From Labrenzia sp. R4_2 (lineage in GTDB: Bacteria; Pseudomonadota; Alphaproteobacteria; Rhizobiales; Stappiaceae), in assembly GCF_017743865.1 (NCBI RefSeq), contig NZ_JAGHRJ010000004.1:124001-188000 (forward strand): a DNA stretch of 64,000 bases. The letters are read 5' to 3'. This document shows positions 13,825 through 30,853 of this stretch, one piece after another. The notes beneath the pieces were generated by a model that saw only the letters and a program-made list of their open reading frames with translations, was not told the origin of the DNA and searched no databases. The number at the start of each line of letters is the position of its first letter. Positions within the stretch are counted from its first letter, which is position 1. Both the position numbers and the translations under genes were made by a program.

Positions 13825-16800
13825 TCAAACCAGCCCGCTAGCACTGAAATCCGCTGCGGTGGGAGCCGTAATGCCTTGTGGGAGGCCGATTAGCAGGAAG
13901 TGTTCCAGCGCGTTAGTGCCGCTATCAAGCCCTTGCTCGTTACGGTACGCCGCAGTGTCAAAGTGGATCGACGCAGCTCTGCCTTCCTGATCGCCGTGAT
14001 TAAGGAAATGCTGATAAGCGCTGACGAACACACCGTTGGCAATCGCTTGAGCAACATCCGTGTTTTGCGCCAGATAATACTCTGGATCAAACAGCGGATT
14101 GACGGACCGGTTCTCGGAAGAACCGAACAACTCGTAATGCTCTGAGGCCGAAGCAAAAATGCCAGAGGCCACCGCGGCTGCGACATCCGCATTGTCCGCG
14201 AGATAAAACTCAGCATCGAACAAAAGGTCCGCGGCACGGCCCTCAGAATTGCCATGCAATGCATAGTGTTGCGCACCACTTGAGAACGCACCAGCTGCGA
14301 CAGCTGCTGCAACATCCGCATGGCTGCTCAAGTAAGTCGCCTCGTTAAATCCGTAGGTTCCGGTCGATGTGGAGCTGTCAGGATTGATGACCAGAACCCG
14401 GTCCTGACCGGTTCCGTTCGCACCAGTAAATACAACCAATTCAACCGCGACCAGCGTGTCTGTGCCATCCCCATCCGTAACCGTGACCCCGCTTCGGGTG
14501 CCCGACAGTCCCACGTCATCCGTCGTGCGGTTATAGACAACAGTGTCCAGTTTGTTGCCGCCATTCAGCGCGTAGTTGTTGGAGCTGCCAAGAAGCACAT
14601 CATCATTGCCGCTGCCGGCGACCAAATCGTTTCCGGTCGCGCTCCGGCCTGTGTCAAACGCGATGACAAGATCTGCATAATCCGCGTCAGACCCGCTTGT
14701 TCCAGAGCCGTTTTCAAGACCGAACGTGTTCTCTCCCAAGATCCGGATCTGGCCAGCACCATCCAGGGTGCTGTCACCGATGAAATACGGCGACCCATCG
14801 TCGGCAAAGAAGATCGGCGCATAGAAACCTGTTGCACCCGAAACGGTCCAGGCCGCGGTTGCAGCAGAGCCTGAATAGAGATATTCAAAACCTCCATCCA
14901 CAAGTTCTATGGCTTTGGCCCCCAATGCCCGGACTTCGGCCAGCGTTTTTCCGTCAATCTTCAAGCTGCCGTCGGTTCCAACATCGACGCGTACAAAACC
15001 GAACTTAAGTTGCGAAGTGCTGGTTCCCGACGCGGTGATATCATGGAGTGTGCCCTGTTCCAAATAGACAAGCGGTATGTCGGTTTGCCGCTGCGCGTCG
15101 GCGAGGATCGCTGCTTCATCTAGGGTGTTTTGAACTGCCGCACTGAGCGTGACATCACCCAGAGTAATGTCATATCCGCCACCGCTGGCGGCCTGGAATG
15201 CAGCTGTCACGGTGGTGTCGACCGTGTCTTGACCGGTCAGTTGGGCAAAGCGGATTTCCTGCCCCGTCTCCAGATAAACAGATTGCTGGACTGCAGCCGC
15301 TCCCGATTGCCCGCCACCCAGAACACCCCGGATGGCCTCCGCCAGGGTGACATCTCCACCTGTTGAACCATCACGGCCGACATAATTGCCAGATGAATCC
15401 ACGACATAGAGCAGGACGGCCGAGCCGGACGCTGGACCTTGCGCGCCAAGGGTAAACTCAACCCAATTGCCGGCGGATTGGCTGTCAGGATTTGACACGG
15501 TCTCAAAGGTCAAGCCTGCATTGGTCGACGACTGCACGAGAGACAACTCATCTAGAGCAACCGTGACTGTGAGTTCCTTCGACGTCCAGCCAATCTGGCT
15601 GCCGACTTGATTGCCTGTGTTGAAATATTCGGTCATCAGCACCGTGTAGATGCCGTTGCCGAGCGCCTTGCCAGTATCTGTGCTCCAACGGCCGTCGATA
15701 TCTGCAGTGGCGAGGACCGGTGCGAGGTCTGGACTGCCGGTCTGCTTAAAGGTGATTTGCGCCAGGTTTTGCGCGCTGATCTTGTTGGTGTAATTCTTCA
15801 ACCACTCATTTGTGCCAGACGTGGCATTCGGGTTCTCCCCGGTCCAGCCAAACACCAAGTTTGACTGGTTGGTTGTCACAGCATTCGTATCGACACTGGT
15901 TTGCCCAGCGATTGCCTCGAAACCACTCTCGCCCAAGACACCGGCAACCACCGCGGTCGGCTCAGCCAGCTGTGAAAGATGGGATGTATTGGAATTCCAG
16001 GTAAACAGGGAGGGATGCAGCGTCGTGCTGCCGCTATAAAGGAAGTCCAAAGCAAAATTGACGATCGTGTCCTCGGTTGACGTTTCCGGGGAAACCATCA
16101 CGAGGCCATCAGCTGCGACGCTGCCACTCTGTCCCGAGACCGAAGGATTCAGAAACAGGCTATCCTGTGTCTCTCCATAGACATTGACTGTCTTTGCAGT
16201 ATCTCCCGACCCGATAACCAGCTGATACCAAACCGTCCCATTTTCGGCGATGGGCATGTTGGAGATGACCATGGCCCCATCAGTCTGTGCCGGACCGGAT
16301 TGAGCCTCCCATGCTCCCGTTGTGGCGTTTTCAGTAATCGTCCAGTTATGCCAGAGCGTTTCGTTGGCGCCGGGTTGAAACTCAATCGTACGGAACCTCG
16401 GAATGCCGTCCTCATTGCCAACAAACACTTTGAGGGCAACAGGGGTATCATCCTTCAAGATGATGTTCTGATTGAAAAAATTAAGGCTTATGTTTGCGCC
16501 TTTTAGGTTGCTCAAATCAGCAGGCGAATAGGATGTCTCATCGAACTGATCGCGAAACAGATCGCTGTGTCCGGGCGGGGCGATGTAATTGTAGATAACA
16601 GGCTGGGTGTACCCGGACGGCGTCTCACTATCATCGTAAATGGTCAGATCAATCGTCTGAACGTTGGCGCCATTGTAATAGACTGGAATGAGAGGCCCGC
16701 CTTCCGCATAGGCGCTCATCAGATTGTCAGAGTAACCGGATCCGTATGAATTTGACTGGAAGAAAAAGAGTTCTGCGTACGGATCCTGAAAGACCGCAGC

Positions 16801-17946
16801 ATCACCGGAAAGGTTTTTGCCGAAGGCGTAGGTCGGATCCCAATTCCAGTTCTTGTTCAGATCAATGCTGTCGGTGACATTGGAATTGAGCGATTTGCCA
16901 GATGTACCGTAGTAGCCAGCGGTAAACCCCGTCAGAAACTCTGTAAGAACTTCACCCCATTGATTGTTGGCCCCGGTGTTCATCTCCGCGCTAGAGGCGC
17001 CTTGGATTGTGTAGGGCGTTGCATCGTCGCGGTTCGAATAGATTTCCACATCGCCGAGGGTCGAATAGATGCTGTTGGCAAGTTGCTCAGCAGTGATCTT
17101 TATCGAGCCCTTGATATGACTTTCAGCAACTGGATTCAGCCAGAACGCGTTATCTGTTGCAGACCACTCCAGCTCGTATCCGAAAAAGCCCCCATTGTGA
17201 TAAATCCCGTTGGCATCGGCAGCTCCGTTGAAGAACCCCGACAGCATAATACCTGTGTCTTTTTTCAAGCTGTCGACATAAGCGGTCCAATCGGATTGGG
17301 AAAAGACATCCGGGATCGGGTTTTGCTCGGCCAACGCAACCGCTTCAGCCGGCGAAATCGCAGCACGATAGGTCCCGGCCAGCGGTCCTGTTGTAAATTT
17401 TTCGACGGCATTTGCGTGGATGTCCGAAACTGACGTGAAAATCGTTTCGCCATCTACATCGTACCCTCGGCTCTGCGTGATCAGCGCGCCTGAACTGTCC
17501 GTGCCATAGGGGATGTAGAGCTCCATCGGCAGCCCGAAGCCCTGCACAGAGGTGAGGTTTCCAGCATCCCCTGTCTGGTTAAGCAGGGACACTTCAAAAC
17601 TGTCGACTCGGTACTGATTGGTTTGCGCATTCTCCCAGTTGATATCGCTTTCCTGGGTTATGATGCTCGTCAGGTCGGTCTGCGTTGCGGTCGGGGATTG
17701 GCTTTGGACAAGAACGTAGACTTTGCCACCATTATAAGGTTCCGGGAGATCCAGCGTTGCAGAGTATCCTGACTGCCCTTCGACAGAGCTCAATCCATTG
17801 ACAACCCCGTTGTTGATGAGTGTTGTCCAGAAGGGTTGGATTGTCCCATCCGTCCCTGGTGCGAAGTAAACGGCATACGCATAAGCGCCGGGATTGGTGA
17901 GCTTGGTTGTAAGTGTTTCTGTTAGGCTAATATTGAGGACAGTCAT
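13825..17946 (-). CDS. Large secreted protein: glucanase-like N-terminus, DUF4114-like and RTX segments, C-terminal repeats
   Basis: A 1373-residue protein with no classical signal peptide, very low in cysteine and rich in Asp, Asn, Gly, Ser and Thr, as in type I-secreted RTX proteins. Residues about 1-450 resemble GH64/thaumatin-like beta-1,3-glucanases (an SFEVSLLNQ strand, then GFGLPMELYIPYGTDS; WTAYVDSLKK; ITAEQLANSIYSTLGDVEIYSNRD). The middle holds further beta-rich domains. Near 1060-1110, GENTFGLENGSGTSGSDADYAD resembles DUF4114, followed by AGSGNDDVLLGSS (RTX-like Ca site). The last 170 residues contain three imperfect units of about 45 residues (YL..ADVAAAVA.G.F.SA..HY..HG..EGRA). 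The ATG at 17946 has GGAG seven bases upstream. No hlyBD-type secretion genes are adjacent. Possible roles: polysaccharide hydrolysis or cell-surface adhesion. Confidence 0.75.
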   Translation of the reverse strand: MTVLNISLTETLTTKLTNPGAYAYAVYFAPGTDGTIQPFWTTLINNGVVNGLSSVEGQSGYSATLDLPEPYNGGKVYVLVQSQSPTATQTDLTSIITQESDINWENAQTNQYRVDSFEVSLLNQTGDAGNLTSVQGFGLPMELYIPYGTDSSGALITQSRGYDVDGETIFTSVSDIHANAVEKFTTGPLAGTYRAAISPAEAVALAEQNPIPDVFSQSDWTAYVDSLKKDTGIMLSGFFNGAADANGIYHNGGFFGYELEWSATDNAFWLNPVAESHIKGSIKITAEQLANSIYSTLGDVEIYSNRDDATPYTIQGASSAEMNTGANNQWGEVLTEFLTGFTAGYYGTSGKSLNSNVTDSIDLNKNWNWDPTYAFGKNLSGDAAVFQDPYAELFFFQSNSYGSGYSDNLMSAYAEGGPLIPVYYNGANVQTIDLTIYDDSETPSGYTQPVIYNYIAPPGHSDLFRDQFDETSYSPADLSNLKGANISLNFFNQNIILKDDTPVALKVFVGNEDGIPRFRTIEFQPGANETLWHNWTITENATTGAWEAQSGPAQTDGAMVISNMPIAENGTVWYQLVIGSGDTAKTVNVYGETQDSLFLNPSVSGQSGSVAADGLVMVSPETSTEDTIVNFALDFLYSGSTTLHPSLFTWNSNTSHLSQLAEPTAVVAGVLGESGFEAIAGQTSVDTNAVTTNQSNLVFGWTGENPNATSGTNEWLKNYTNKISAQNLAQITFKQTGSPDLAPVLATADIDGRWSTDTGKALGNGIYTVLMTEYFNTGNQVGSQIGWTSKELTVTVALDELSLVQSSTNAGLTFETVSNPDSQSAGNWVEFTLGAQGPASGSAVLLYVVDSSGNYVGRDGSTGGDVTLAEAIRGVLGGGQSGAAAVQQSVYLETGQEIRFAQLTGQDTVDTTVTAAFQAASGGGYDITLGDVTLSAAVQNTLDEAAILADAQRQTDIPLVYLEQGTLHDITASGTSTSQLKFGFVRVDVGTDGSLKIDGKTLAEVRALGAKAIELVDGGFEYLYSGSAATAAWTVSGATGFYAPIFFADDGSPYFIGDSTLDGAGQIRILGENTFGLENGSGTSGSDADYADLVIAFDTGRSATGNDLVAGSGNDDVLLGSSNNYALNGGNKLDTVVYNRTTDDVGLSGTRSGVTVTDGDGTDTLVAVELVVFTGANGTGQDRVLVINPDSSTSTGTYGFNEATYLSSHADVAAAVAAGAFSSGAQHYALHGNSEGRAADLLFDAEFYLADNADVAAAVASGIFASASEHYELFGSSENRSVNPLFDPEYYLAQNTDVAQAIANGVFVSAYQHFLNHGDQEGRAASIHFDTAAYRNEQGLDSGTNALEHFLLIGLPQGITAPTAADFSASGLV

Positions 17947-18379
17947 AGTAAGCTCCAATTCTCTCCGGCGACGGCATCAAGGGTTTTTAGAAATCGCTTT
18001 AAATCCCAATCTGGCGCTTAGTCATAAGCGTCATCCAATGCTCTTCCCTACTTGAGGTGCCTTTTCGGAAACTGACGTCCTTGCGCTCGAATTGCACACG
18101 GAACCTCACTTGCCGACAGTGTGCCAACCAAATCCAAATCACTGTTTGCTAGTAGAAGAGTATCGGGGACCGACGTATCAGGAAGGTAAACACCGAGTTC
18201 CGGATATTATCGTGAAACACATACTCGGCTCGGGCGATTGTCGTCTGCAATCCAACGGCAGCAAGAATTTAGAAACGCAACGAGGCCCAAAAGCCGCTGC
18301 CATTGGGTCGAGCAACCGGACGACGAGTATTGGCGGTGCTTCGTATGAGCAGCTCAACCGTCCTTATGGGTCTCGTAAA
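17947..18379. other. Intergenic region upstream of the giant secreted protein gene
   Basis: No convincing gene. A short stem CGCTTA-GTCA-TAAGCG (18015-18030) lies about 70 bp before the secreted-protein start and could be an operator. The 125-codon plus-strand frame covering part of this region has no family resemblance and overlaps the Bfd-like gene. Confidence 0.5.
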
Positions 18380-18396
18380 TTGATAAGAATTATCAA
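18380..18396. promoter_or_regulatory. Perfect palindrome of TGA-N9-TCA type (iron-box-like)
   Basis: TTGATAA-GAA-TTATCAA, a perfect 7+3+7 palindrome that fits the RirA iron-responsive-operator form TGA-N9-TCA. It overlaps the stop codon of the Bfd-like gene rather than its promoter, so its target is unclear; it is too A/T-rich to be a terminator. Confidence 0.45.
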
Positions 18397-18698
18397 GCGC
18401 TGCGCGCATCTGAGAGTTGGTTCCGAACCGCCTGGGTACGATCGTATTCAGACCGGATCTTGGCAATAAACGGGATAATTTCTGCTTCAGGTGTCTCAGC
18501 CTGACGATGAAACTTTTCAGTCTCGGCGACAATAATATTGATGATGTTCGGAAAACAACTGCAGCATTGACCGCGCTTCTTCATGGCGTGATACACCCGG
18601 CCCGGCGTGATCAACTGCCACTGATCCTCATCAAGCAAGCTCTGGATGACACTTTCAACGGCCGACTTTGAGATAACATTGCAACTGCAAACAAGCAT
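18393..18698 (-). CDS. Bacterioferritin-associated ferredoxin (Bfd)-like [2Fe-2S] protein
   Basis: A 101-residue protein with the four-cysteine pattern of the Bfd/BFD-like [2Fe-2S] domain: CSC at residues 4-6 and CCSC at 45-48 (C45 and C48 as the second pair). E. coli Bfd (64 residues) reduces iron stored in bacterioferritin. Here a 40-residue charged C-terminal extension follows and no bacterioferritin gene is adjacent, so the partner is unknown. An imperfect 11-bp inverted repeat sits immediately upstream, and an iron-box-like palindrome lies at the stop codon, both consistent with iron- or redox-controlled expression. The cluster may instead serve an oxidoreductase encoded elsewhere. Confidence 0.8.
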   Translation of the reverse strand: MLVCSCNVISKSAVESVIQSLLDEDQWQLITPGRVYHAMKKRGQCCSCFPNIINIIVAETEKFHRQAETPEAEIIPFIAKIRSEYDRTQAVRNQLSDARSA

Positions 18699-19008: not shown

Positions 19009-19479
19009 CTACTCGCCAGCTCCGGCTTCCAGACGATGGGACAACAACGTTAGCAGATCGATGTCCGCCCGTTCGGTCAGCGAGACATACGTGAATGTCA
19101 TAGTTTCACGCTGCTCGACCATTGCACCGGGGAACGGCATGTAGACCAGTTCGCGCGACGCGAAGGCAGGCGAGGCAGTGCCGATCTGCCAATTGCTGAC
19201 GATCTGCGCATCGACAAGATGCTGCACTAAGCCGTCAGCACCTTCCTTTTGAAACGGGATACCGGCGATCCGGAGATAACTGGTCTTGTCCTCGGCTTGC
19301 CGGAAACCGTCGATGAAACTCGCTGACAGGGTTTGCAGTTCCTCGGCGCGTTCCGACGCCGACGTCCCATGGACATGGGAATGCAGATGATCCTGACCCC
19401 CATGATTGTGATCGTGCGGATGCGCATGATCGTGATCATGATGGTGGTGATGGCCGTGGTGTGAATGGCTGTGCCCCAT
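19009..19479 (-). CDS. Histidine-rich protein linked to guanidine hydrolase; putative nickel chaperone
   Basis: A 156-residue protein I do not recognise as a named family. Residues 1-38 contain 19 histidines with Asp and Gly between them (MGHSHSHHGHHHHHDHDH opening), like the metal-storage tails of HypB, UreE or CooJ. Residues 39-156 form a compact mixed domain (ELQTLSASFIDGFRQAEDK; AGIPFQKEGADGLVQHLVDA; ELVYMPFPGAMVEQRETMTF) without cysteines or a nucleotide-binding motif. It begins 4 bp after the ureohydrolase stop, with GGAG inside that gene's end, so the two are tightly coupled. Since characterised guanidine hydrolase needs Ni and HypA/HypB-like accessory proteins (GdmA/GdmB, not seen here), a Ni delivery role is inferred. 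A simple metal buffer is the alternative. Confidence 0.75.
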   Translation of the reverse strand: MGHSHSHHGHHHHHDHDHAHPHDHNHGGQDHLHSHVHGTSASERAEELQTLSASFIDGFRQAEDKTSYLRIAGIPFQKEGADGLVQHLVDAQIVSNWQIGTASPAFASRELVYMPFPGAMVEQRETMTFTYVSLTERADIDLLTLLSHRLEAGAGE

Positions 19480-19483
19480 GTCG

Positions 19484-20722
19484 TTACTCCACGTCCGGTC
19501 CGGCCGGGATTGAAACCGGCTTGTCGAGGATGGCTTTGTGCGACCCCATCTTGCCGTGGGAGACGAGTGTGCCCAGCACATCCACGATCACGCGCGTTGC
19601 AAGAAGCGCGGTGATGTCGGAGCAATCGTACGGCGGCGAGACCTCAACGACCTCAAGCCCGCAAATGCCTTCCTTGGCAACGAGGGAAACCAATTCCAGC
19701 GCTTCACGAGGCAGGAAGCCGCCCGGCTCCGGCCAGCCGGTTCCGGGAACAAATCCGCAGTCGACACTGTCGATATCAAAGGAAATGTAGACGGCATCCG
19801 CATCTTTCCAGGCGAGCTCCAAAGCCCTTGCTGCGGTTTCCGCCAAACCAAGTTCCTCAACATCGCGCATGGTGAAGATGTTGGTGTTGCGGTCGCGGGC
19901 AACTTCCACCCCCTCGCGCGGAACCTGCCAGCCGCCAATACCGATCTGGACCAGATTGACCGCAGGCACATTGACCAAATCCGTTGCATGGAACCACGGC
20001 GTGGTGTGCATGCGTTCATCAAGATCCTTCTCCTGGATATCAATATGCCGGTCGAAGTGGACAATGCCGATGCGCTTGGATGTGCACTGGGCAATGCCTC
20101 GAACACACGGGAACCCGATGGAATGATCGCCGCCAATCATGATCGGCAACGCACCCGAGGAGGCAACGTGCGACACGGCTCGGGTAATCTGGTCGAAGGT
20201 TTTTTCGATATTGGCGGGAATCGTGAAGATATCGCCGACATCGCACAGCGTCATTTGCTCGCGGAGATCGACACCCATCTCGTAATTGTAAGGCGTGTAA
20301 AGCGCGGAGATTTTACGGACGCCCTGCGGGCCAAACCGGGTTCCCGGCCGGTAGGTGGTGCCACCGTCAAATGGAATGCCGATGACTGCGGCATCATAGG
20401 CGCCAACCTGCGTGACGTCTTCGATGTAAGGTGCCTTCAGGAACGTGTTGATGCCGGCATAATGGGGCAGCTCCCCCCGTGCAAACGTTGGAATGGACTT
20501 GTCTGTGAGGCTATCCGAGCCGGTCAGTCCCATGCGCAAAGCCCAAGCCTTTTCCTTTTCCCAAGCAGCTGAGGGCAGCAGTCCCTCTTTTTCCGCAGCC
20601 TTCCAGCCGCGCAGCTGGAGCTTGTCGAAATCAGGATGGTGGTGACGTTCGGTCTTGGTTCGTCCCAGTAACCCGGCTGCGCGCTGCCGGGTAGATGGAC
20701 CGTCTGGACGAAAGATGCTCAT
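19484..20722 (-). CDS. gdmH: Ureohydrolase-family protein, probable Ni-dependent guanidine hydrolase (GdmH-like)
   Basis: A 412-residue arginase/agmatinase-fold enzyme, about 100 residues longer at the N-terminus than agmatinase. Binuclear metal ligands are intact: H200 (IGGDHS), D224/H226/D228 (HFDRHID, where agmatinases have DAHxD) and D316/D318 (SFDIDSVD). The motif GTGWPEPGG has Trp at 330 where agmatinases usually have Thr; Trp here and Thr in INTFLKAP (T93) match what I recall as guanidine-specific residues of the Synechocystis enzyme. Expected reaction: guanidine plus water to urea and ammonia. The ATG at 20722 has GAGGA upstream. It follows the ABC ATPase gene by 8 bp under a guanidine-I riboswitch, which decides against agmatinase. 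Automatic annotation would likely say agmatinase (speB). Confidence 0.85.
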   Translation of the reverse strand: MSIFRPDGPSTRQRAAGLLGRTKTERHHHPDFDKLQLRGWKAAEKEGLLPSAAWEKEKAWALRMGLTGSDSLTDKSIPTFARGELPHYAGINTFLKAPYIEDVTQVGAYDAAVIGIPFDGGTTYRPGTRFGPQGVRKISALYTPYNYEMGVDLREQMTLCDVGDIFTIPANIEKTFDQITRAVSHVASSGALPIMIGGDHSIGFPCVRGIAQCTSKRIGIVHFDRHIDIQEKDLDERMHTTPWFHATDLVNVPAVNLVQIGIGGWQVPREGVEVARDRNTNIFTMRDVEELGLAETAARALELAWKDADAVYISFDIDSVDCGFVPGTGWPEPGGFLPREALELVSLVAKEGICGLEVVEVSPPYDCSDITALLATRVIVDVLGTLVSHGKMGSHKAILDKPVSIPAGPDVE

Positions 20723-20730
20723 GGCGTTCC

Positions 20731-21552
20731 TCAATGTGTCTTTTGTGAAATCTGAATGTCGGGTTTCGGGGCAGATCGGATGGTACTCGCGATATCAGCC
20801 GGTGCGTTTTGCTCGCCGCCGGATTGGTCGGAGAGTGGAAGGTCGTAGGTGATGGTTGCCCCGTAGGCCTCTGGCGCTTGCGAGTCGTGCCGGATCTTGT
20901 CGAAAACGAGCAGCCGTGTGCCGAGCTTGAAGGCCTCATGGATGTCGTGGGTCACCATGAAAATCGTCATGCCTGTCTCTTTCCAAAGACCAATCAGAAG
21001 GTCGTGCATGTCGAGGCGGATGCCGGGGTCGAGCGCGCCGAACGGCTCATCCAACAGCAAAATCGAAGGCTTCTTGATCAAGGCCTGCGCTATGGCGAGG
21101 CGCTGCTGCATCCCCCCGGACAGCTGCGCCGGATACTTGTCTCTCGCTGCGGCCAGACCAATCCGCTCAAGGACATCTTCAATCTGCTCAATGGCCAACT
21201 TCCGGCGGGCACCAAACAGTTTGCCAAGGCGCGGTGCTTGTTCAAACTCCTGAGCCAGGATCAGGTTTTCAACGACAGTCAGGTGGGTAAAGACCGAGTA
21301 TTTTTGGAAAACGATGCCGCGATCCGGGGTTGGCTCCTTGGGCAGCAGCGTCCCGTCGAGTAGGATTTCTCCATGGGTCGGATGCTCCTGGGAAAGCAGC
21401 ATGCGCAAAAACGTGGATTTGCCGCACCCTGATGCGCCCACGATCGTGCAAAATGATCCGGCGTCCACCTCAAGAGCGATCCGCTCCAGGACCGGGTTGC
21501 CGTCATAGTATTTCGACAACCCTTGAACGGAGAGTTTTGCAGGGGCAGTCAT
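20731..21552 (-). CDS. ABC transporter ATP-binding protein, guanidine uptake (NrtD/TauB family)
   Basis: A 273-residue ATPase of the nitrate/sulfonate/taurine group. Walker A GASGCGKST (about residues 39-47), Q-loop VFQKYSVF, signature LSGGMQQR, Walker B ILLLDEPFGALD and the switch histidine in MVTHDIHEA are all present. It would energise the adjacent permease at the cytoplasmic face. The ATG at 21552 overlaps the permease stop by four bases (ATGA), which decides the start against a longer open frame to 21837. Family members of this type are recurrent neighbours of guanidine-I riboswitches; the substrate is inferred from that riboswitch and the hydrolase. Confidence 0.9.
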   Translation of the reverse strand: MTAPAKLSVQGLSKYYDGNPVLERIALEVDAGSFCTIVGASGCGKSTFLRMLLSQEHPTHGEILLDGTLLPKEPTPDRGIVFQKYSVFTHLTVVENLILAQEFEQAPRLGKLFGARRKLAIEQIEDVLERIGLAAARDKYPAQLSGGMQQRLAIAQALIKKPSILLLDEPFGALDPGIRLDMHDLLIGLWKETGMTIFMVTHDIHEAFKLGTRLLVFDKIRHDSQAPEAYGATITYDLPLSDQSGGEQNAPADIASTIRSAPKPDIQISQKTH

Positions 21553-22370
21553 AGCGCGGCACCTCCCATATGGTTCCAGCGGAAGGCCCGCTTGGACAGA
21601 AGGAGCAGCAGCCGGTCCAGTATGAATGCCAGCAGCGTGATCCAGACGACATATGGAAGGATGACGTCCATCGCGAGATAGCGCCGGACCAGGAAAATGC
21701 GGTAGCCAAGGCCCGTGGTGGACGCGATCGCCTCTGCAGAAATGAGGAAGATCCAGGCCGGCACGAGCCCGAGGCGCAAGGCGGTGATCAGCTTTGGAAG
21801 GACTTGCGGTAACACTAGCCGGGTAATCATCTGCCAAACCGTAGCGCCAAGGGTCTCGGCCTTGATGATCATTTCACGGGGGATGTCGAGCACCGCTTGC
21901 GCAGTCGCACGGATCATCACCGGCGCGGTCCCGATCACGATCAGAGCAATCTTCGAAACCTCTCCAAGTCCAAACGTGATGAAAAGGATCGGCAGGATGG
22001 TGATCGGCGGAATGAGTGAAAACGTGGCGAGGTAAGGGGCAAGGGCACTTCGTATGTGCGGAATGAACCCGATCCCTATCCCGAAGAGGATTGCAAGGAG
22101 CGTGGAGACCGCCATTCCGGTTCCAAGGCGCATCAGACTGTCGAAGGTGTCGATACACAACAACAGATCGCCGGAGCGCCGATCCGGAACAGCAGCCATC
22201 CGCCAGAACGCCTGCCCCATGCTCTCAAGGGAGGGCAAAAGCTTGTCGGCCGGATTGTCGAGCCGCCTGTAGTGACTGGCAATCGCGTAAGTCACGATAG
22301 TCGCTACAAAGGGAAGCAGTCCCAAGGCAAAAGCGGTAAACCGCGACGGAGTTCGGTTTATGAGGCGCAT
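21549..22370 (-). CDS. ABC transporter permease, guanidine uptake (NrtB/TauC family)
   Basis: A 273-residue inner-membrane permease with about six hydrophobic segments and the cytoplasmic EAA-type loop IKAETLGATVWQMITRLVLPQVLPKLITALRLGL preserved in register (E-A-x3-G form). Typical of the BPD_transp_1 superfamily. Translation is coupled to the ATPase gene by a 4-bp overlap. I start at ATG 22370; the longer frame begins at a TTG inside the intercistronic hairpin and is unlikely. A terminator-like hairpin upstream probably lowers its expression relative to the binding protein. Confidence 0.9.
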   Translation of the reverse strand: MRLINRTPSRFTAFALGLLPFVATIVTYAIASHYRRLDNPADKLLPSLESMGQAFWRMAAVPDRRSGDLLLCIDTFDSLMRLGTGMAVSTLLAILFGIGIGFIPHIRSALAPYLATFSLIPPITILPILFITFGLGEVSKIALIVIGTAPVMIRATAQAVLDIPREMIIKAETLGATVWQMITRLVLPQVLPKLITALRLGLVPAWIFLISAEAIASTTGLGYRIFLVRRYLAMDVILPYVVWITLLAFILDRLLLLLSKRAFRWNHMGGAAL

Positions 22371-22405
22371 GAAGGGTCTCGAAGCCGGACGAGGGAATTT
22401 GAAAA

Positions 22406-22431
22406 CCTGTCCCGGCAAATACCGGGACAGG
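22406..22431 (-). terminator. Intercistronic hairpin after the binding-protein gene
   Basis: Perfect 10-bp stem CCTGTCCCGG / CCGGGACAGG (22406-22415, 22422-22431) with a 6-nt loop and TTTT directly after it on the minus strand, 11 bp beyond the binding-protein stop. A partial terminator at this position is a common way to make more binding protein than membrane subunits. Confidence 0.8.
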
Positions 22432-22442
22432 TTAAGACGGCC

Positions 22443-23501
22443 TTAGAGCGAGCCGCTGGCAGCCATTTCCATGAAACTCGGATCGAAGCGGAGTTTCACG
22501 TTGTTGCTGTCGCCATAAACCGACCCGTCAGCAAAGGAGACGCCGACAAATTCCGGGCTTGGCGCGCCCTCACCCAGGATGCCCTTGTCAAACAGGAATT
22601 CGGCAACGAATTTCATCGTCTTGGGCAGCTCAGCTGACTTGGCGAACTCCACAGCCTCGGCTGGCGTGTAGAACATCTTCGTTGTGGCGAGTTGCGCCTT
22701 GTAGCCCGCAAGGTCGGTCCCGGAAGCTTCGGCCATCGCGGTCAAGGCTGTTTCATCGCCTTCTGCCATGAGATCCATCACTTCGTACCAGGCACCAGTG
22801 AGCGCTTTGCCGAAGGCCGGATTGTCAGCCAGTGTTTCCGTGTTGACCATCATGATGTCGATGATTTCGCCCGGGATACCTGCACTGTCGAACACCTTGG
22901 TTGCGTTGGGCTGCGCTTCGATCTCAGACAAAAGCGGATTCCAGGTGACGACCGATGTGACATCCGGCGTTGCATAAGCTGCGATCATGTCAGCGTCGGA
23001 GGTGTTAACGACGGTCAGATCCCGCTCGGTTAGCCCCACGGTGTCAAGAGCCCGCGCGAGCAGGTAATGGGAAACTGAAAGCTCGACCAGGTTGACCGTT
23101 TGCCCCTTGATCTCGGCAAGCTCAGTCTTGTCCTTCAGGATGATCCCATCATTGCCGTTGGAGTAGTCACCGACAATCAGCGCCGTAGTGTCAACGCCAC
23201 CGCCTGCCGGGATAGAGAGCGCGTCCATGTTCGTCATGGAGCAGCCATCATATTCACCCGCAGTATATTGGTTGATGGATTCCACATAGTCGTTGATCTG
23301 CACGATCTCGACATCAATTCCGTATTTATCGGCCCACTTCTTCATGATGCCGCTGTCCTGCAGATAGCCCCAGGGCATCCAGCCAACATAGATCGACCAA
23401 CAGACTTTGAAGTCAGTCTTGACTTCCGCCTGCGCGGAAAATGAGAGGGGCATTGAAAGCGCTGCAGCGAGCAGGGAAGCCTTGGCGATTGATTTCAGCA
23501 T
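22443..23501 (-). CDS. ABC transporter substrate-binding protein, probable guanidine-binding
   Basis: A 352-residue periplasmic protein. A signal peptide is clear (MLKSIAKASLLAAALSMPLSFSAQA, cleavage near residue 25), followed by the NMT1/TauA-like fold: VCWSIYVGWMPWGYL, INDYVESINQYTAGEYDGCSMTNMDAL and SVSHYLLARALDTVGL. The aromatic-rich first strand is typical of members recorded with urea-carboxylase and guanidine-riboswitch loci. First gene after the riboswitch, so its translation or transcription should rise with guanidine. GGAG lies about 12 bases before the ATG. Substrate assignment rests on the riboswitch, not on binding residues. Confidence 0.88.
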   Translation of the reverse strand: MLKSIAKASLLAAALSMPLSFSAQAEVKTDFKVCWSIYVGWMPWGYLQDSGIMKKWADKYGIDVEIVQINDYVESINQYTAGEYDGCSMTNMDALSIPAGGGVDTTALIVGDYSNGNDGIILKDKTELAEIKGQTVNLVELSVSHYLLARALDTVGLTERDLTVVNTSDADMIAAYATPDVTSVVTWNPLLSEIEAQPNATKVFDSAGIPGEIIDIMMVNTETLADNPAFGKALTGAWYEVMDLMAEGDETALTAMAEASGTDLAGYKAQLATTKMFYTPAEAVEFAKSAELPKTMKFVAEFLFDKGILGEGAPSPEFVGVSFADGSVYGDSNNVKLRFDPSFMEMAASGSL

Positions 23502-23608
23502 CTGTGCGCGTCTCCTGTCTTGGGCCCTTGGAGATCCCGAGGGCTTCCGTCATGAGGCTTTTTGCGCACGTCCGGGAGGAAGGTTCGCGCGCGCGAAACC
23601 TCGTGCAG

Positions 23609-23720
23609 TTGTCTCCCGGGTTTTTGTCCCGCCGTGTCACCAGGCTATGTGAGATCCTCACGATCTGCTCGCCCGGCTTGCACCTCTCGGTCCTGCGTCA
23701 TCTGACCGGATCCCTAGGCG
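23609..23720 (-). promoter_or_regulatory. Guanidine-I (ykkC subtype 1) riboswitch
   Basis: Read on the minus strand the leader begins CCTAGGGATCCGGTC, continues with GGACCGAGAGGTGC and a variable hairpin, and ends ACACGGCGGGACAAAAACCC then GGGAGA. These are the conserved blocks of the guanidine-I aptamer, in order and at normal spacing. It lies about 110 bases upstream of the binding-protein start. Beyond the aptamer, CTCCCGG (minus strand, 23578-23572) can pair with the aptamer's own CCGGGAG (23619-23613), a plausible ligand-off competitor; whether control is transcriptional or translational is not clear. Confidence 0.93.
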
Positions 23721-23912
23721 CGCTGCACATTCATAACAAAGCAAGGGCGGTGCCAAGTACAATAAAATTGAAGATATATAAACAAAAACAGCACATTAGG
23801 CGGATTGCAGGTCGCACCGTCTCAATCAATTAAATGCTAAAATCATATGCACGGTTAAAAATCAGGCACCAATGAGCGAGAAACAGGCAGAAGAGAAAGA
23901 GATGCAAACGCG
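23721..23912. other. Promoter region of the guanidine operon
   Basis: A/T-rich sequence between the riboswitch 5' end and the end of the neighbouring reductase gene. It must hold the operon promoter; no unambiguous -35/-10 pair or gene was identified. Confidence 0.4.
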
Positions 23913-24569: not shown

Positions 24570-25976
24570 TCAGGCCCGTTGCAGACCCGGAAACAGGAAC
24601 ACCTGACCGCTTTCAAAATCATAATCCGGATTTTCCCAGGCAATCATTTTGCCCGGATTGAGCAACCCTTTCGGATCGGCTTGCTTTTTGAAAGCGAGCT
24701 GGACTGCATCCGTCTGCTTCATCCCCCCCTCTTCGAGCGTATACCGGTGTGGGTTGAAAATCGGGCAGCCATTGTCTTCGTGAAGGCGGATGATTTCTTC
24801 GAGCCGGACCTCGTTGGAATAGCGAACAATCGGCAGGCCGAAGCATGTGACATTGCCATCAAACCGCACGTATTCGAGATGGCCCGGAACCTCATCTCCA
24901 AACATCTCATGCATCCTGCCAACCAGCTCGACCTGATTGGGAAATGGATAAAGAACCTGGAGATAGGTGATTGAGGGATCCACTCTAAGCCCCCGCAAGG
25001 TCGTGTGGTTCCACGAAAGCTCGTAAGCCGGCGGGAGCCGTTTCAGATCTTCCTCGGACCCTTTGTCTGACCGATAGAGCACCTCCCCCTTGGACTGCCG
25101 CTCCATGAACGCATCGAATGCAGCCATCGCGAAAGGGGCGACCATCAAGACAGCAACGGACTGGTCCCTGCGGATGAATTTCTGGTGCCGGAGGAAATAG
25201 TCATGAGGAACTGGTGCAGCGATCGGCGCAATGTTCTTCGTCAGCAAACCGTCCAGATTGGCCAGTTCATCTGAAAACCGCACTGCATCCATAAAGTCGT
25301 CAAACCCGACCAAAACATCCACCCAGTCGTAACTGGCGGTCAGAGGCATCTCGACTTCGGTGATAATGCCGTTCGTGCCATAGGCGTGCATCACTTTCTG
25401 CAGTTCATCGCCCGTCATTTCAAGAACCTGCGGCTCTGCTTCCATCGTGACAACGCGCAAACGAATGACGTTGCCAAGATCCCTCAAGCCACCCCAGTTG
25501 ATCGACCCAACGCCGCCGGACCCGCCCGCAATAAACCCACCGATCGTCGCGGTCCGGTAGGTTGATGGATGCATCCGCAATTCCTGTCCGGTCTGGGCTC
25601 GGGTGATCGCATCAATATCCGCTATTATGGCACCAGCCTGTGCAACGACAGATCCGGCCCGCACTTCCTTCACCGCAGTCATTTCCGCAAGGTTGAGAAC
25701 GACCCCACCCGACAACGGCATGGCTTGGCCATAGTTTCCAGTCCCGGCACCGCGTGTCGTAACAGGCACATCAGCCGCAAAACACGCCTTGAGAATCCGG
25801 ATGACCTCGTCCTCGGACTTGGGTGTCACGATCAGGTCGCCCGTCACGTTTTCAAGCTGAGCCTTTAGCACTGGCGAATACCAGAAAAAGTCCCGGCTCT
25901 TCTGCTTCACGATTTGCGGGTTGTCCTCGATCTTGATCCCATCGAGATCGGCTATCAAAGCGGCAATGGCGCTCAT
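24570..25976 (-). CDS. FAD-binding oxidoreductase (GlcD/VAO family)
   Basis: A 468-residue flavoprotein with an N-terminal PCMH FAD domain: VTTRGAGTGNYGQAMPLSGGVVLNLAEM (about residues 73-100) and the GGFIAGGSGGVGSINWG loop. The C-terminal half is FAD-oxidase-C like, ending GLLNPGKMIAWENPD. Family members oxidise hydroxy acids or amines and pass electrons to quinone or oxygen. The start lies 3 bp after the amidohydrolase stop, so it belongs to the transporter/amidohydrolase operon and probably oxidises a product of that enzyme. The exact substrate is not recognisable. Confidence 0.85.
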   Translation of the reverse strand: MSAIAALIADLDGIKIEDNPQIVKQKSRDFFWYSPVLKAQLENVTGDLIVTPKSEDEVIRILKACFAADVPVTTRGAGTGNYGQAMPLSGGVVLNLAEMTAVKEVRAGSVVAQAGAIIADIDAITRAQTGQELRMHPSTYRTATIGGFIAGGSGGVGSINWGGLRDLGNVIRLRVVTMEAEPQVLEMTGDELQKVMHAYGTNGIITEVEMPLTASYDWVDVLVGFDDFMDAVRFSDELANLDGLLTKNIAPIAAPVPHDYFLRHQKFIRRDQSVAVLMVAPFAMAAFDAFMERQSKGEVLYRSDKGSEEDLKRLPPAYELSWNHTTLRGLRVDPSITYLQVLYPFPNQVELVGRMHEMFGDEVPGHLEYVRFDGNVTCFGLPIVRYSNEVRLEEIIRLHEDNGCPIFNPHRYTLEEGGMKQTDAVQLAFKKQADPKGLLNPGKMIAWENPDYDFESGQVFLFPGLQRA

Positions 25977-25978
25977 GG

Positions 25979-27298
25979 TCAGGAGGTCCCTTTCTGAAGA
26001 AGTCGATCGAGTTCACGATAGTCGGGCAAGGTCTGATCAATGCTGCACCCTGCTCTCAGCACGCGGCGCGGGCCGGCTGGGCGGGACAGAAGCTCATTCC
26101 AGTTCCGCGCATTGAAAAGCAGAAGATCGGCGGCCCCACCGACCGCAATCTGGCCCATGGTCAACCCAATGATATGCGCTGGCGTTGTCGTAACCGCACG
26201 GATCCAATCATCAACCGGATGATCAAGATGCAGGATCCGGGTTGCCTGGGTGTACACCTCGACAAGATCCATATCGCCATAGGCATAAAAGGGATCGCGC
26301 GTGTTGTCCGAGGCGACACACACTTGAATGCCGCGCGCGCGCATTTCATGCAAAAGTGTCACGCCGCGCTTGCGTGGTGTCCGTCCTTGCATGCGGTCCT
26401 GCAAATACATGTTGCACATCGGCAGTGAAACGACAGAAATCCCAGCTTCTGCGACCAAGTCCAGAGTTCTGGAAATGGCGTCATCGGAATGCACCGACAA
26501 GGAGCAGCAGTGTCCGCACAGGATCTTGCCATCAAACCCCAAGCGCAGCGCGACTTCAGCGATCCGGCGTAAAGTGTCCGCAGCCGGATCAAGCGTTTCA
26601 TCGACATGAAAATCAAGATCCAGCCCGCGATCCATTGCCGCTTTAAATACTGATTCCAGATGCTGATCCACATCCGGCACCATATATGTAACAGCCCCCA
26701 AGACCCCGCCCGCAGCTGAAACACGATCGGCAATGCTGTGAAGGTACCCATTATCTTCGGCCAGCCGGTCAATACCGAACAAGCACACACCTTGAAGTTC
26801 AATGCGTCCAGCCCACTCAGAACGTACTTCCGCAAAGATCGGCCACGTGATGTCATCTTGTGGAGGAAGACTGTCTAGGTGGGTGCGGATTGCGCCCGTC
26901 CCATGGGCGTAGGCACACTTTAGTGAGAAATCCATCCGGGCCCTGACATCGTCGGCGCACCAATACGCGCTCCGGTCTCTTCCCACCGCTTGAAGTGCAC
27001 CTTGAAAGGTCCCGTCCGGATTGGGCTCGCGCGGCCAAATATGCCCCTTGTCCAGATGTGTGTGCACATCCACGAGTGTCGGCAGGATAAGCCCGCCATC
27101 GAGATCAAGGCCGCCCGCGCCTTCCGGCAGCGTCCCAGCTGGAGCAATCTTTGTGAGCTTCCCATTCTCGAACACGATGTCACGAACCGTCAGCTCCGAG
27201 ACCGGGGTTTGCTGCACACCCTCCAGAAGACATACGGGCACAGTCGCATTTCTGATGATGCCGGTCCCTTTAAACCCGGCGCCCCACCCCGGCTTCAT
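25979..27298 (-). CDS. Cytosine deaminase-like amidohydrolase
   Basis: A 439-residue metal-dependent deaminase/amidohydrolase of the cytosine deaminase group. Metal and catalytic positions are visible: H79 and H81 (VDVHTHLDKGH), DFHVDETLD, GHCCSLS (GHC histidine) and SDNTRDPFYAYGD (metal aspartate). The family includes cytosine, isocytosine, creatinine and triazine-type deaminases. Its start directly abuts the permease stop and the FAD oxidoreductase follows immediately, so it acts on what the ABC system imports, probably a nitrogen heterocycle. The identity of that compound is open. Confidence 0.85.
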   Translation of the reverse strand: MKPGWGAGFKGTGIIRNATVPVCLLEGVQQTPVSELTVRDIVFENGKLTKIAPAGTLPEGAGGLDLDGGLILPTLVDVHTHLDKGHIWPREPNPDGTFQGALQAVGRDRSAYWCADDVRARMDFSLKCAYAHGTGAIRTHLDSLPPQDDITWPIFAEVRSEWAGRIELQGVCLFGIDRLAEDNGYLHSIADRVSAAGGVLGAVTYMVPDVDQHLESVFKAAMDRGLDLDFHVDETLDPAADTLRRIAEVALRLGFDGKILCGHCCSLSVHSDDAISRTLDLVAEAGISVVSLPMCNMYLQDRMQGRTPRKRGVTLLHEMRARGIQVCVASDNTRDPFYAYGDMDLVEVYTQATRILHLDHPVDDWIRAVTTTPAHIIGLTMGQIAVGGAADLLLFNARNWNELLSRPAGPRRVLRAGCSIDQTLPDYRELDRLLQKGTS

Positions 27299-28177
27299 CT
27301 ACATCTCCCGCTTCAAAGCGCTTTCGTGCCACTTGCGCAGAAGCAGATGCGACAGAAGGTTCATGGAAAGGAATATCAATATACCGGTCACGGAAATCAG
27401 GATCAGCGCAGCAAACATGCGCGGCATGTTGAGACGATAGCTCGCCTCAAGGATTTGATTGGCAAGACCGGATCCTGACCCCGCTGACCCAGCGACAAAT
27501 TCTGCAACAATGGCTCCGATCAAGGACAAGCCACCGGCAATTTTCAAACCGCCCAAAAAGTACGGCATGGATGCAGGCAATCTCAAGAAGCGCAGTGTTT
27601 GCCACCGGCTCGCGCCATAAAGGCGGAACAGGTTTTGAAGATTATGATCGGCTGAATTCAAGCCCAAAGTCGTGTTGGAAAGGATCGGAAAAAACGCAAC
27701 AATCCACGCGCAGATCAAAAGCCCCGCGGTAATTGAATCCACGTAGATGAGAATCAAAGGCGCAATCGCAATGATCGGTGTGACCTGCAAAATGACCGCA
27801 AACGGAAAAAACGAAATCTCGATCCACTTGGACTGAGTGAAGAGGACTGCCAAACCAAGCCCACCGAGCGTGGCGATCAAAAGCGCACCAAACGTGATCT
27901 TGAGCGTGTTGATCAAAGCAATGCTCAAGATGCCCCAATCAGCAAGAAGCGTTTCAAAAACAAGCCCCGGGCGCGGCAGGATATAGTGAGGTATCTCATT
28001 CCAGACACACAGCCTGTCCCAAAAATATACCGACAAAACGAGGATAACAATCGGCAGGACCCAACGGCCAACAGCCTCCCGCCGTGCCGCGCGCGCCCGT
28101 TTGAGCTCCTCCGCATCAAGTGGAACAGACTGCGGGGCAGATGCAATGGCGTGCTTGTCGGCGATCTCGAGTGTCAT
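27299..28177 (-). CDS. ABC transporter permease (ThiX/SsuC type)
   Basis: A 292-residue inner-membrane permease with six predicted hydrophobic segments. The cytoplasmic EAA loop appears as LFRLYGASRWQTLRFLRLPASMPYFLGGLKIAGG. The first 45 residues are a charged cytoplasmic leader (EELKRARAARREAVG). It belongs to the same superfamily as pyrimidine-precursor (ThiX) and sulfonate permeases. Lies between the ATPase gene (43-bp gap) and the amidohydrolase (abutting). Confidence 0.88.
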   Translation of the reverse strand: MTLEIADKHAIASAPQSVPLDAEELKRARAARREAVGRWVLPIVILVLSVYFWDRLCVWNEIPHYILPRPGLVFETLLADWGILSIALINTLKITFGALLIATLGGLGLAVLFTQSKWIEISFFPFAVILQVTPIIAIAPLILIYVDSITAGLLICAWIVAFFPILSNTTLGLNSADHNLQNLFRLYGASRWQTLRFLRLPASMPYFLGGLKIAGGLSLIGAIVAEFVAGSAGSGSGLANQILEASYRLNMPRMFAALILISVTGILIFLSMNLLSHLLLRKWHESALKREM

Positions 28178-28220
28178 GATCTGCTACCGCCTTTGTTCAG
28201 TATGTATCGGGACAGACACA

Positions 28221-29036
28221 TCAAAGATGATCTCCCACAATCATTGCCTTATGCAGCGCATCCGAAACATCCCGGCAAAAACCGGCGTAGACGGATGATG
28301 TCCGGAAGGACTCGTCCCTCGGGTAAGGCGCGTCGATCGCCATATCGTTGACCACACGGCCGGGCCGCGCCGCCATCACCACGATCCGGTTGGACAGATA
28401 GACAGACTCAAATACCGAGTGCGTAACGAAGATGACGGTCCATCCAAAGGTTTCCCAAAGACGCAAAAGGTCGTTGTTCAGTTTGAAGCGTGTAATCTCG
28501 TCAAGCGCAGCAAAGGGCTCATCCATCAAGAGCAACTTGGGTTTCGTGACCAGCGCACGGGCAATGGAGACCCGCATTTTCATGCCGCCAGACAGCTCGC
28601 GCGGGTAGCTGTCAGCGAATTGCTCCAACCCGACCCCCTGCAAAGCCTCCATAACCCGGTCATGCGCCGCTTTTCTGGAAACACCCTTCAAGCGGAGGGG
28701 CAGCCAGACATTGCCGAAAACCGTTGCCCACGGCATCAGCGTCGGTTCCTGGAACACGAAACTTAGCTCATGTTCCTTTTGCTTGCTTTCTTCGAGCGGC
28801 CATTCGACTCGGCCCGTAGTTGGACTGGTCAAGCTGGTTATGATCCGCAAGGCCGTCGACTTTCCGCATCCGGAGGGCCCGAGCAGCGAAACGAATTCCC
28901 CTTGTCGTATGTCGAGCGACATGTTGTTGAGCGCGACCGTTCCGTTGGAGAAGGTTTTTGAAATACCCTTCAGCGAAACGATCGGCGAACTCGAAACGAT
29001 ATCTGATTGCATATTTGTATTTACCATGGCCGTCAT
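28221..29036 (-). CDS. ABC transporter ATP-binding protein (ThiZ/SsuB type)
   Basis: A 271-residue ATPase with Walker A GPSGCGKST, Q-loop VFQEPTLMPW, signature LSGGMKMR, Walker B LLLMDEPFAALD and switch VTHSVFES. I start at ATG 29036, preceded by CCGGAGATT; an upstream ATG at 29066 is in frame but has no ribosome-binding site. Energises the permease downstream; the binding protein is upstream. Confidence 0.88.
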   Translation of the reverse strand: MTAMVNTNMQSDIVSSSPIVSLKGISKTFSNGTVALNNMSLDIRQGEFVSLLGPSGCGKSTALRIITSLTSPTTGRVEWPLEESKQKEHELSFVFQEPTLMPWATVFGNVWLPLRLKGVSRKAAHDRVMEALQGVGLEQFADSYPRELSGGMKMRVSIARALVTKPKLLLMDEPFAALDEITRFKLNNDLLRLWETFGWTVIFVTHSVFESVYLSNRIVVMAARPGRVVNDMAIDAPYPRDESFRTSSVYAGFCRDVSDALHKAMIVGDHL

Positions 29037-29093
29037 TGCATCAATCTCCGGCCATGGTTGCAACATTCCAATGAAACACGAAACAGGTCCGCC

Positions 29094-30104
29094 TCAGTTT
29101 CCAGCAAGTTCTTTCTTGAGGTCCAATCCGACCCCTTGGTTGACGAACTGAAGCGTGTACGACTTGGTGTAATCGACATCGCCATTCACCACACCTGCGG
29201 CGACCATCTTCTCAAAGAAGGATTTGTTGCGCTCGTCGGTCATCGCACCGATCCCCATGGTGAGCGCATCACCGCTGTCTACGATGCCGTACGACTTCAG
29301 CTTGTCGATGGAGAACGCTAGCTGTCCGTCGGTCATACCCGGATTGTCTTTTTTGATCAGCTCCAAGGCTTTGGAGTTATCTCCATAAAGGAAATTGACC
29401 CAACCGATAGCAGACCCATCGACGAAACACTTCACAACCTCTGGCTTGGTTTCGATGAGGTCGAGCCGGGTCTCAACGGTGGTGGAATAGGTGTCGTACC
29501 CATAGTCTGCGATCAGGAAAATGTTGGGTTCAAACCCGCCCTCGGTCTCGATCGCATAGGGCTCAGAGGTGATGTAGCCCTGTTGGCCGAGCTTCTTGTC
29601 TGCAAGGAACGGCGCAGAGTTATAGGTATAGGGCCGAACCTGCTCATCCTTGAAGCCGAACTCAGCTTTCATCCATTGAAAATAGGAATTGAGGCCACCC
29701 TTACCGATGAGGAGATTGATATCCTTCAGGCTCTCCCAGGTGTCGAGGCCCTGATCCGGGTGGGTCATCAGAATTTGCGGCTCTTTTTGGAAGTGCGCAG
29801 CAACAACAGTCGTCGGTATGCCCTGCTCAACGGCTGAGAACGCTTGCAGCATATTGCCGCCCATCAGGAAATCGATCTTGCCGACAGGCAACAAAATCCG
29901 ATTGTTCGCCTGAGGTCCGCCGGGCTTGATTTCCACTTCGATCCCGCAGGCTTCGTAAGTGCCGTCGGCAACAGCCTGATAATATCCGCCATGCTCGGCC
30001 TGAGCGACCCAGTTGGTACCGAATGTCACCTTCTCAAGCGCATGCGCACTTGTCGACGCCATGACAGCGAGCGTTGCAAGTCCAATTTTCCGAGACAAAT
30101 CCAT
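29094..30104 (-). CDS. ABC transporter substrate-binding protein (NMT1/THI5-like)
   Basis: A 336-residue periplasmic protein. From the ATG at 30104 (GGGGA upstream) it begins with a signal peptide MDLSRKIGLATLAVMASTSAHA and then VTFGTNWVAQAEHGGYYQA, the family's opening. NMT1/THI5-like proteins include ThiY, which binds formylaminopyrimidine, and the surrounding amidohydrolase echoes the ThiXYZ plus YlmB arrangement, though no thiamine-salvage gene is present. Substrate is likely a small N-heterocycle. Heads the leftward operon; divergent from the RidA gene. Confidence 0.85.
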   Translation of the reverse strand: MDLSRKIGLATLAVMASTSAHALEKVTFGTNWVAQAEHGGYYQAVADGTYEACGIEVEIKPGGPQANNRILLPVGKIDFLMGGNMLQAFSAVEQGIPTTVVAAHFQKEPQILMTHPDQGLDTWESLKDINLLIGKGGLNSYFQWMKAEFGFKDEQVRPYTYNSAPFLADKKLGQQGYITSEPYAIETEGGFEPNIFLIADYGYDTYSTTVETRLDLIETKPEVVKCFVDGSAIGWVNFLYGDNSKALELIKKDNPGMTDGQLAFSIDKLKSYGIVDSGDALTMGIGAMTDERNKSFFEKMVAAGVVNGDVDYTKSYTLQFVNQGVGLDLKKELAGN

Positions 30105-30815: not shown

Positions 30816-30853
30816 GCATAGATTGCAAATACAAGTTATTAGGAAGACGAATA

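Follow-up and report, generated by a model that had tools for sequence, protein, structure and literature searches.

We analysed a 64,000-nucleotide stretch of the Labrenzia sp. R4_2 genome (NZ_JAGHRJ010000004.1, positions 124,001-188,000, forward strand), hereafter the window, which carries a probable operon for guanidine utilisation on its minus strand. Running from 23728 to 19009, this locus starts with a guanidine-I aptamer, behind which lie five genes that encode the substrate-binding protein (SBP), permease and ATPase of an ATP-binding cassette (ABC) importer, a ureohydrolase and a His-rich protein. The features are as follows:

23611-23728, minus strand: guanidine-I (ykkC-yxkD) aptamer (RF00442, 62.6 bits; our own covariance model, 94.2 bits)
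23499-23619, minus strand: putative translational expression platform (sequence, aligned leaders and folding; proposed mechanism)
22443-23501, minus strand: SBP of the ABC importer, TIGR03427 family (NCBIfam, 556.9 bits; signal-peptide-like N-terminus by eye)
22404-22433, minus strand: 12-bp perfect hairpin, a possible intercistronic stem-loop between the SBP and permease genes (read from the sequence)
21549-22370, minus strand: ABC permease (PF00528, 71.2 bits; ATG start, with a TTG start at 22418 also open)
20731-21552, minus strand: ABC transporter ATPase (PF00005, 111.4 bits, scanned without the first codon)
19484-20722, minus strand: predicted guanidinase, a GdmH-type nickel-dependent ureohydrolase (PDB matches, tree and active-site residues)
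19009-19479, minus strand: His-rich guanidinase-linked protein of 156 amino acids, a candidate nickel chaperone (linkage, co-occurrence and AlphaFold core)

The SBP and permease genes are separated by 72 bases, the permease and ATPase genes overlap by 4, and the remaining gaps are 8 (ATPase to enzyme) and 4 bases (enzyme to His-rich protein). A preliminary description of this DNA had proposed such a co-directional five-gene operon behind an aptamer, and this arrangement holds; its extent of 19009 to 23720 is right for the genes and falls short at the upper end, where the aptamer reaches 23728. By eye, the hairpin at 22404-22433 is followed by a short T run and perhaps raises SBP over permease output.

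A probable guanidinase, its importer and its aptamer

To place the ureohydrolase we compared it with solved structures. The best PDB matches were Synechocystis GdmH (7ESR/7OI1; 541.6 bits) and the guanidinase of Nitrospira inopinata (9FEK; 531.4 bits), two relatives for which guanidinase activity has been published, and the next match scored 178.2 bits. Identity over aligned positions was 64.8% to GdmH and 60.5% to the N. inopinata enzyme; three further solved ureohydrolases reached 31.1-37.7%, and seven paralogs from the same genome 24-34%. In a midpoint-rooted tree of 38 sequences, one branch with support of 100/99 split 28 sequences, including 7ESR and 9FEK, from ten others. The guanidinase side holds the window protein, the two proven guanidinases, four actinobacterial records and 21 proteins from a set of 80 loci (the best 80 of 580 confirmed guanidinase loci; these are the loci most closely related to the query, at least 74% identical, and not a random sample). 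The ten outside sequences are a guanidinobutyrase, a guanidinopropionase, a proclavaminate amidino hydrolase and the seven paralogs; the program flagged these outgroup branches as long, and the order outside the guanidinase branch was therefore not relied on.

The active site agrees with this placement. All six ligands of the binuclear metal site are intact (H200, D224, H226, D228, D316 and D318), and T123 and W330 are equivalent to Thr97 and Trp305 of GdmH, which are reported as determinants of guanidine specificity (PMC11410670; the GdmH chain numbering in our alignment runs 2 above the published numbers). The tryptophan is absent from the three other solved ureohydrolases and all seven paralogs, the threonine also occurs in one of each, and an actinobacterial protein of the guanidinase clade (L094) has threonine at the tryptophan site. 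The motif GTGWPEPGG lies at residues 327-335, and the arginase domain begins at residue 110 of 412, so that the N-terminal extension is real. The preliminary description had pointed to the metal ligands, the motif and the long N-terminus, and had favoured a GdmH-type enzyme over an agmatinase; these points are borne out here. The window ureohydrolase is thus probably a GdmH-type guanidinase, with nickel-dependent guanidine hydrolysis suggested by its clade and active-site residues.

It had also been predicted that automatic annotation would read agmatinase plus a nitrate/taurine transporter. The first half is partly right: the best NCBIfam names are agmatinase, at scores under the cut-off, and the agmatinase equivalog TIGR01230 is not reached (171.6 bits against a curated cut-off of 174.3). 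Among seven alphaproteobacterial plasmid records, two annotate the enzyme as an agmatinase family protein and five show no annotation there. The second half does not hold, as the SBP belongs to TIGR03427 and not to a nitrate/taurine family. Its score of 556.9 bits is well above the cut-off of 333.9 for this model (ABC_peri_uca, 'putative urea ABC transporter SBP'), a family that we take to be linked to urea/guanidine carboxylase. Since the switch and the enzyme both point to guanidine, guanidine is a likelier cargo than urea, and from family and linkage we consider it very likely that the transporter imports guanidine.

We next turn to the aptamer. RF00442 matches 23611-23728 over the full model length at 62.6 bits (E = 7.5e-11 in a 501-base search). 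This is 0.4 below the gathering score of 63 bits, and a default scan therefore misses it; in a whole-genome scan at E 0.001 it was the sole RF00442 match found. We aligned it with 22 of 31 loci found by a core-sequence pattern. Across these 23 sequences the blocks CTAGGG, CCGAGAG, CACGGCGGG and CCCGGGAGA do not vary, an invariance to be read with the fact that the 22 loci were selected by a pattern containing parts of the same blocks, and two-sided changes occur at 13 of the 24 predicted pairs. A covariance model built from this alignment gives the window aptamer, itself one of the 23 seeds, 94.2 bits and detects an aptamer in 77 of the 80 orthologous loci, 22 of which served as seeds and 55 of which did not. 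One of these matches (L058) runs off the contig end. No match was found in L026 and L079, where the available sequence starts inside or just before the operon, or in L046, where a closely related importer does not lie beside the enzyme. Together these results uphold the earlier aptamer call and its conserved blocks: the window element is a member of the guanidine-I class, which is described as highly selective for guanidine (PMC11410670), and is predicted to bind guanidine.

These data allow us to propose how the operon works. The ABC transporter would bring guanidine into the cell, the GdmH-type nickel guanidinase would hydrolyse it to urea plus ammonia, and a urease encoded elsewhere in the genome would finish the urea; genes for urease alpha, UreD, UreE, UreF and a UreG-like protein lie on another contig. 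Uptake and hydrolysis of guanidine had been proposed at the outset, and the aptamer match and the enzyme clade support it. That this is a GdmH-type guanidinase operon is highly probable.

The leader as a possible translational switch

Between the aptamer and the SBP start codon, the leader contains the following elements, in this order:

23613-23619, minus strand: CCGGGAG, 3' strand of the aptamer
23602-23608, minus strand: CTGCACG
23581-23601, minus strand: leader hairpin
23572-23578, minus strand: CTCCCGG
23564-23570, minus strand: CGTGCGC
23511-23516, minus strand: Shine-Dalgarno sequence AGGAGA
23504-23509, minus strand: GCGCAC
23499-23501, minus strand: SBP start codon ATG (read by eye)

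CTCCCGG is the complement of CCGGGAG at the aptamer end, and CGTGCGC has two possible partners, CTGCACG and the start-site GCGCAC. As the helix CCGGGAG:CTCCCGG crosses the helix CTGCACG:CGTGCGC, the two should be mutually exclusive. This suggests a model in which guanidine binding would let the aptamer retain its 3' strand CCGGGAG, leaving CTGCACG free to pair with CGTGCGC; the sequence near the Shine-Dalgarno element and start codon would then be released and translation would start.

Several observations fit this model. The platform elements are conserved across 23 aligned leaders (the window and 22 loci), an alignment restricted to leaders carrying the CTCCCGG element and omitting L014, L016 and L017 (start codon unclear) and L080 (a near copy of L077). 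The free-fold centroid of the window leader displays the OFF pairing, while the minimum-energy fold differs. Start-site pairing is kept elsewhere by matching changes, for example in L018, L022, L021 and L015, and for 19 of 23 leaders (L043 being without the element) the start-site helix is reproduced in fewer than 10% of shuffles. Other results weigh against the model. In the remaining four leaders (L019, L020, L071 and L077) the helix is at chance level, and the stability of the window leader does not clearly exceed that of its shuffles (z = -0.97; 33 of 200 equally good). Predicted accessibility of the start site with the aptamer formed gave a mixed picture, rising in 15 of 22 leaders (without L021 and L023), falling in 6 and staying equal in 1; several of these leaders are close relatives.

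The alternative is that the riboswitch controls transcription, by intrinsic or Rho-dependent termination. The guanidine-I class is described as acting on transcription (PMC11410670), and an exact CTCCCGG lies 3' of the aptamer in 24 of the 63 leaders with a located start codon (starts were located for 63 out of 77 entries, a set without L058; that of the window was assigned by eye). However, the leader hairpins of the window have no T run after them, and the start-site sequence does have a complementary partner in the leader. We regard transcriptional control as a real possibility, short of even odds, and give a translational ON switch as drawn an even chance; loci without CTCCCGG may act differently.

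The His-rich protein and its possible role in nickel supply

The combination of riboswitch, importer and guanidinase is a known operon type. In the Synechocystis sll1077 operon, a guanidine-I riboswitch likewise accompanies a three-gene ABC importer, a GdmH-type guanidinase and nickel accessory genes (PMC12186494, PMC8390497, PMC11271267); its accessory proteins are HypA/HypB-like (GhaA/GhaB), whereas the window has one unrelated His-rich protein. In the marine cyanobacterial cluster the transporter genes follow the enzyme and hypA/hypB (PMC10119275), whereas here the transporter comes first. The N. inopinata locus shares the riboswitch (PMC11410670), and its guanidinase belongs to the same clade (60% identity), but a permease of the APC type takes the place of the ABC importer and a nickel chaperone was not found there (PMC11410670). 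In the operons for the metformin and dimethylguanidine hydrolases MefH/DmgH, nickel ureohydrolases are likewise accompanied by genes for nickel chaperones and by a nearby HupE nickel transporter; they differ in their heteromeric enzymes and HypA/HypB chaperones, and the accessible portion of the source mentions no riboswitch (PMC11399263). The window enzyme scores 139.4 bits or less against MefH/DmgH-type enzymes. Guanidine carboxylase operons of Pseudomonas syringae and enterobacteria share the riboswitch and ABC importer (PMC12186494, PMC11410670) and carry an ATP-dependent carboxylase/deiminase/allophanate hydrolase in place of the guanidinase. What is new in the window is the fifth gene: helpers of the HypA/HypB type are replaced by an undescribed His-rich family.

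To evaluate how tightly this gene is tied to the guanidinase we examined the 80 loci. It lies downstream of the guanidinase gene on the same strand in every one, at -60 to +40 bases from the guanidinase stop in 77 and at 144, 221 and 433 bases in the others. Because these loci are close relatives, we also drew whole-genome samples. In the class sample (289 genomes), seven genomes have the guanidinase at E 1e-90 or better and eight have the His-rich gene, including all seven; in the phylum sample (398 genomes), seven have the guanidinase, and the genomes with the His-rich gene are exactly those seven. Two genomes are common to both samples, giving 12 distinct genomes with both genes, and by coordinates the genes are adjacent and on the same strand in 12 of 12, with two gaps of about 150 and 350 bases. 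The eighth genome of the class sample (G125) holds a His-rich remnant with stops before it (L109:7091-7360), and no guanidinase match at E 1e-90 was found in that genome, nor any in the 20 kb around the remnant, which could be a decaying partner gene.

The protein is predicted to consist of a disordered, His-rich N-terminal tail and a folded domain some 115 residues long; over most of the stretch from residue 41 to 154 the AlphaFold pLDDT exceeds 90. The model of a second orthologue, which is laid out differently, has a near-identical order of elements, with two helices, a run of strands and a C-terminal helix. Across the 80 sequences the N-terminal tail has a median of 17 His; at least five His are present there in 78 and at either end in 79. 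In the L050 subfamily (Magnetovibrio and others) the core comes first and the tail is C-terminal, as in 11 of 11 sequences examined among 18 members, L050 not counted; two of the 18 (P0135 and P0136) have an N-terminal tail. From sequence, the tail resembles a metal-binding module that can change ends. D64, P104 and P117 of the core are invariant in 44 sequences. No Pfam or NCBIfam family was found for the His-rich protein at E 0.001; among the 44 members a weak Pfam echo of ZrgA reaches E 0.017. The best 120 of 613 relatives from a protein search are named hypothetical or uncharacterized proteins, and the family was not mentioned anywhere in the literature found, with incomplete coverage of key papers.

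UreE, HypA and HypB are likewise small accessory proteins adjoining a nickel enzyme, and UreE and HypB carry a His-rich tail like that of the window protein. Unlike them, none of the 44 family members is listed against the HypA, CobW/HypB/UreG or UreE models of Pfam or NCBIfam at E 0.1, and a CobW-type GTPase match in Pfam is likewise absent at this threshold, in scans where HMMER filters remove most weaker matches. HypB is described as His-rich (PMC11399263).

Other evidence points to nickel. GdmH requires two nickel chaperones, GhaA and GhaB (PMC11271267), and hypA and hypB are frequent in GdmH-type operons (PMC8390497), also in marine picocyanobacteria (PMC10119275). With HypA and HypB-like proteins of the same genome as queries, the 80 loci yielded one chance match and one distant match off the operon, and neither gene was found within these operons; seven of the 12 guanidinase genomes, five of them listed as 100% complete, gave no HypA match. 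Seven of the 80 loci, from three Sinorhizobium, three Mesorhizobium and one Methylopila, have a HupE/UreJ-like gene next after the His-rich gene; Pfam confirms five, which lie some 20 to 50 bases beyond it. In the operons of metformin hydrolase, HupE is described as a transporter that takes up nickel (PMC11399263). Taken together, the His-rich protein would carry nickel to the guanidinase, or insert it, in the place of GhaA/GhaB.

A number of points count against such a role. The core has no His in 33 of 80 sequences and no Cys in 68, and none is conserved, which leaves the tail as the one obvious place for metal. The weak NCBIfam echoes among the 44 members are mainly nickel/cobalt efflux proteins (best E 0.0025), and metal efflux proteins also carry His-rich stretches. 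Related genomes within the two samples are not independent. No His-rich gene lies near the guanidinase-clade genes of two Rubrobacter, one Nonomuraea and one Embleya record, and no HypA/HypB was found nearby in these either. The comammox guanidinase of N. inopinata works, poorly nickel-loaded, without a known chaperone or HypA/HypB-type helpers, its nickel route being stated as unclear (PMC11410670). In one study, chaperone co-expression did not significantly alter metformin hydrolase activity; the knockout strain, however, failed to grow on metformin (PMC11271267). A chaperone may therefore not be needed. In the genome itself, hypA and a hypB-like gene lie in a cluster for hydrogenase maturation, and ureE and a ureG-like gene are also present; these Hyp/Ure proteins could supply nickel to the guanidinase. 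Owing to the core without conserved His or Cys, the actinobacterial loci without the gene and the metformin hydrolase result, we hold a nickel chaperone or donor for the guanidinase to be only somewhat favoured as the role of this protein. The stronger proposal, an NTPase-free insertion factor dedicated to the guanidinase, of alphaproteobacterial origin independent of HypA/HypB and UreE and with a fold unmatched in the solved structures here, is tentative, at slightly under an even chance.

The protein might instead be a mere nickel store, buffer or detoxifying sponge that is co-induced with the enzyme, with insertion proceeding without a dedicated factor or through urease/hydrogenase maturation proteins. 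The concentration of His in the tail, the core lacking conserved His or Cys, the hyp and ure genes of the genome and the chaperone-free comammox guanidinase (PMC11410670) would all suit this. A pure sponge has no obvious need for a folded core that is conserved and in which D64, P104 and P117 never vary, nor for strict linkage to one enzyme, and seven of 12 genomes lack a HypA match; we think this explanation unlikely. More doubtful still is a role as a guanidinase subunit, regulatory or structural, that acts in stability, gating or inhibition, with the His tail incidental or a nickel sensor. Strict linkage and a conserved core that supplies no metal ligands would be expected of a subunit, but 79 of 80 sequences retain the tail at either terminus, one subfamily carries it at the opposite end, and the HupE/UreJ neighbour in seven loci points to nickel. 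It is very improbable that the operon serves another guanidino compound (agmatine, guanidinobutyrate or methylguanidine) through an agmatinase-like hydrolase, as the sub-cut-off NCBIfam names would have it, since the clade and specificity residues match guanidinases and an aptamer of a highly guanidine-selective class (PMC11410670) stands in front. For the whole reading, a guanidine-induced nitrogen-assimilation operon with a His-rich nickel partner, we estimate a probability of about 0.8.

Neighbouring genes, related loci and implications

Beside the operon, window positions 24570-31645 encode a FAD-binding oxidase, a cytosine-deaminase-like amidohydrolase (PRK07583, 639.2 bits), an NMT1-type ABC transporter and, in divergent orientation, a creatininase-family protein. 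This region looks like one for catabolism of a nitrogen-rich cyclic compound; at the threshold applied, L001 alone among the 80 loci has that oxidase and deaminase adjacent to its guanidine operon. Downstream of the operon and on the same strand is a 1377-residue open frame with a TTG start and no Pfam match (13825-17958), and 18393-18698 encodes a small BFD-like [2Fe-2S] protein whose Pfam score of 23.1 falls slightly short of the cut-off of 26.

On another contig of the same genome (L127:2739-10240, G000:C26), two divergent ureohydrolases, 24% and 31% identical to the guanidinase, accompany two AraC-type regulators, two HupE/UreJ-type genes with a third just under the cut-off, and a PPIase-like gene. 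PDB searches at E 1e-50 and 1e-30 gave no sequence match for these ureohydrolases; from its gene content the locus is possibly another nickel ureohydrolase system. In L046 (1739-8699), the guanidinase and His-rich genes, without a guanidine-I match, share a row with 2-oxoglutarate dioxygenase-, creatininase- and glutamine-synthetase-like genes (labels by sequence reading, with no family search), and a guanidine-releasing pathway may feed the guanidinase there. On a plasmid of Rubrobacter indicoceani (L091:6363-13969), a guanidine-I aptamer lies directly upstream of the guanidinase-clade gene, which is followed by a sodium:solute symporter gene, an opposite-strand formamidase gene and urease genes.

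These data show that guanidinase operons linked to a riboswitch occur repeatedly in alphaproteobacteria from both sea and soil, and that alphaproteobacterial guanidinases can carry an agmatinase family annotation. The leader offers a testable architecture for a translational guanidine switch. For the nickel loading of guanidinases, the His-rich gene is a concrete and recurrent candidate.

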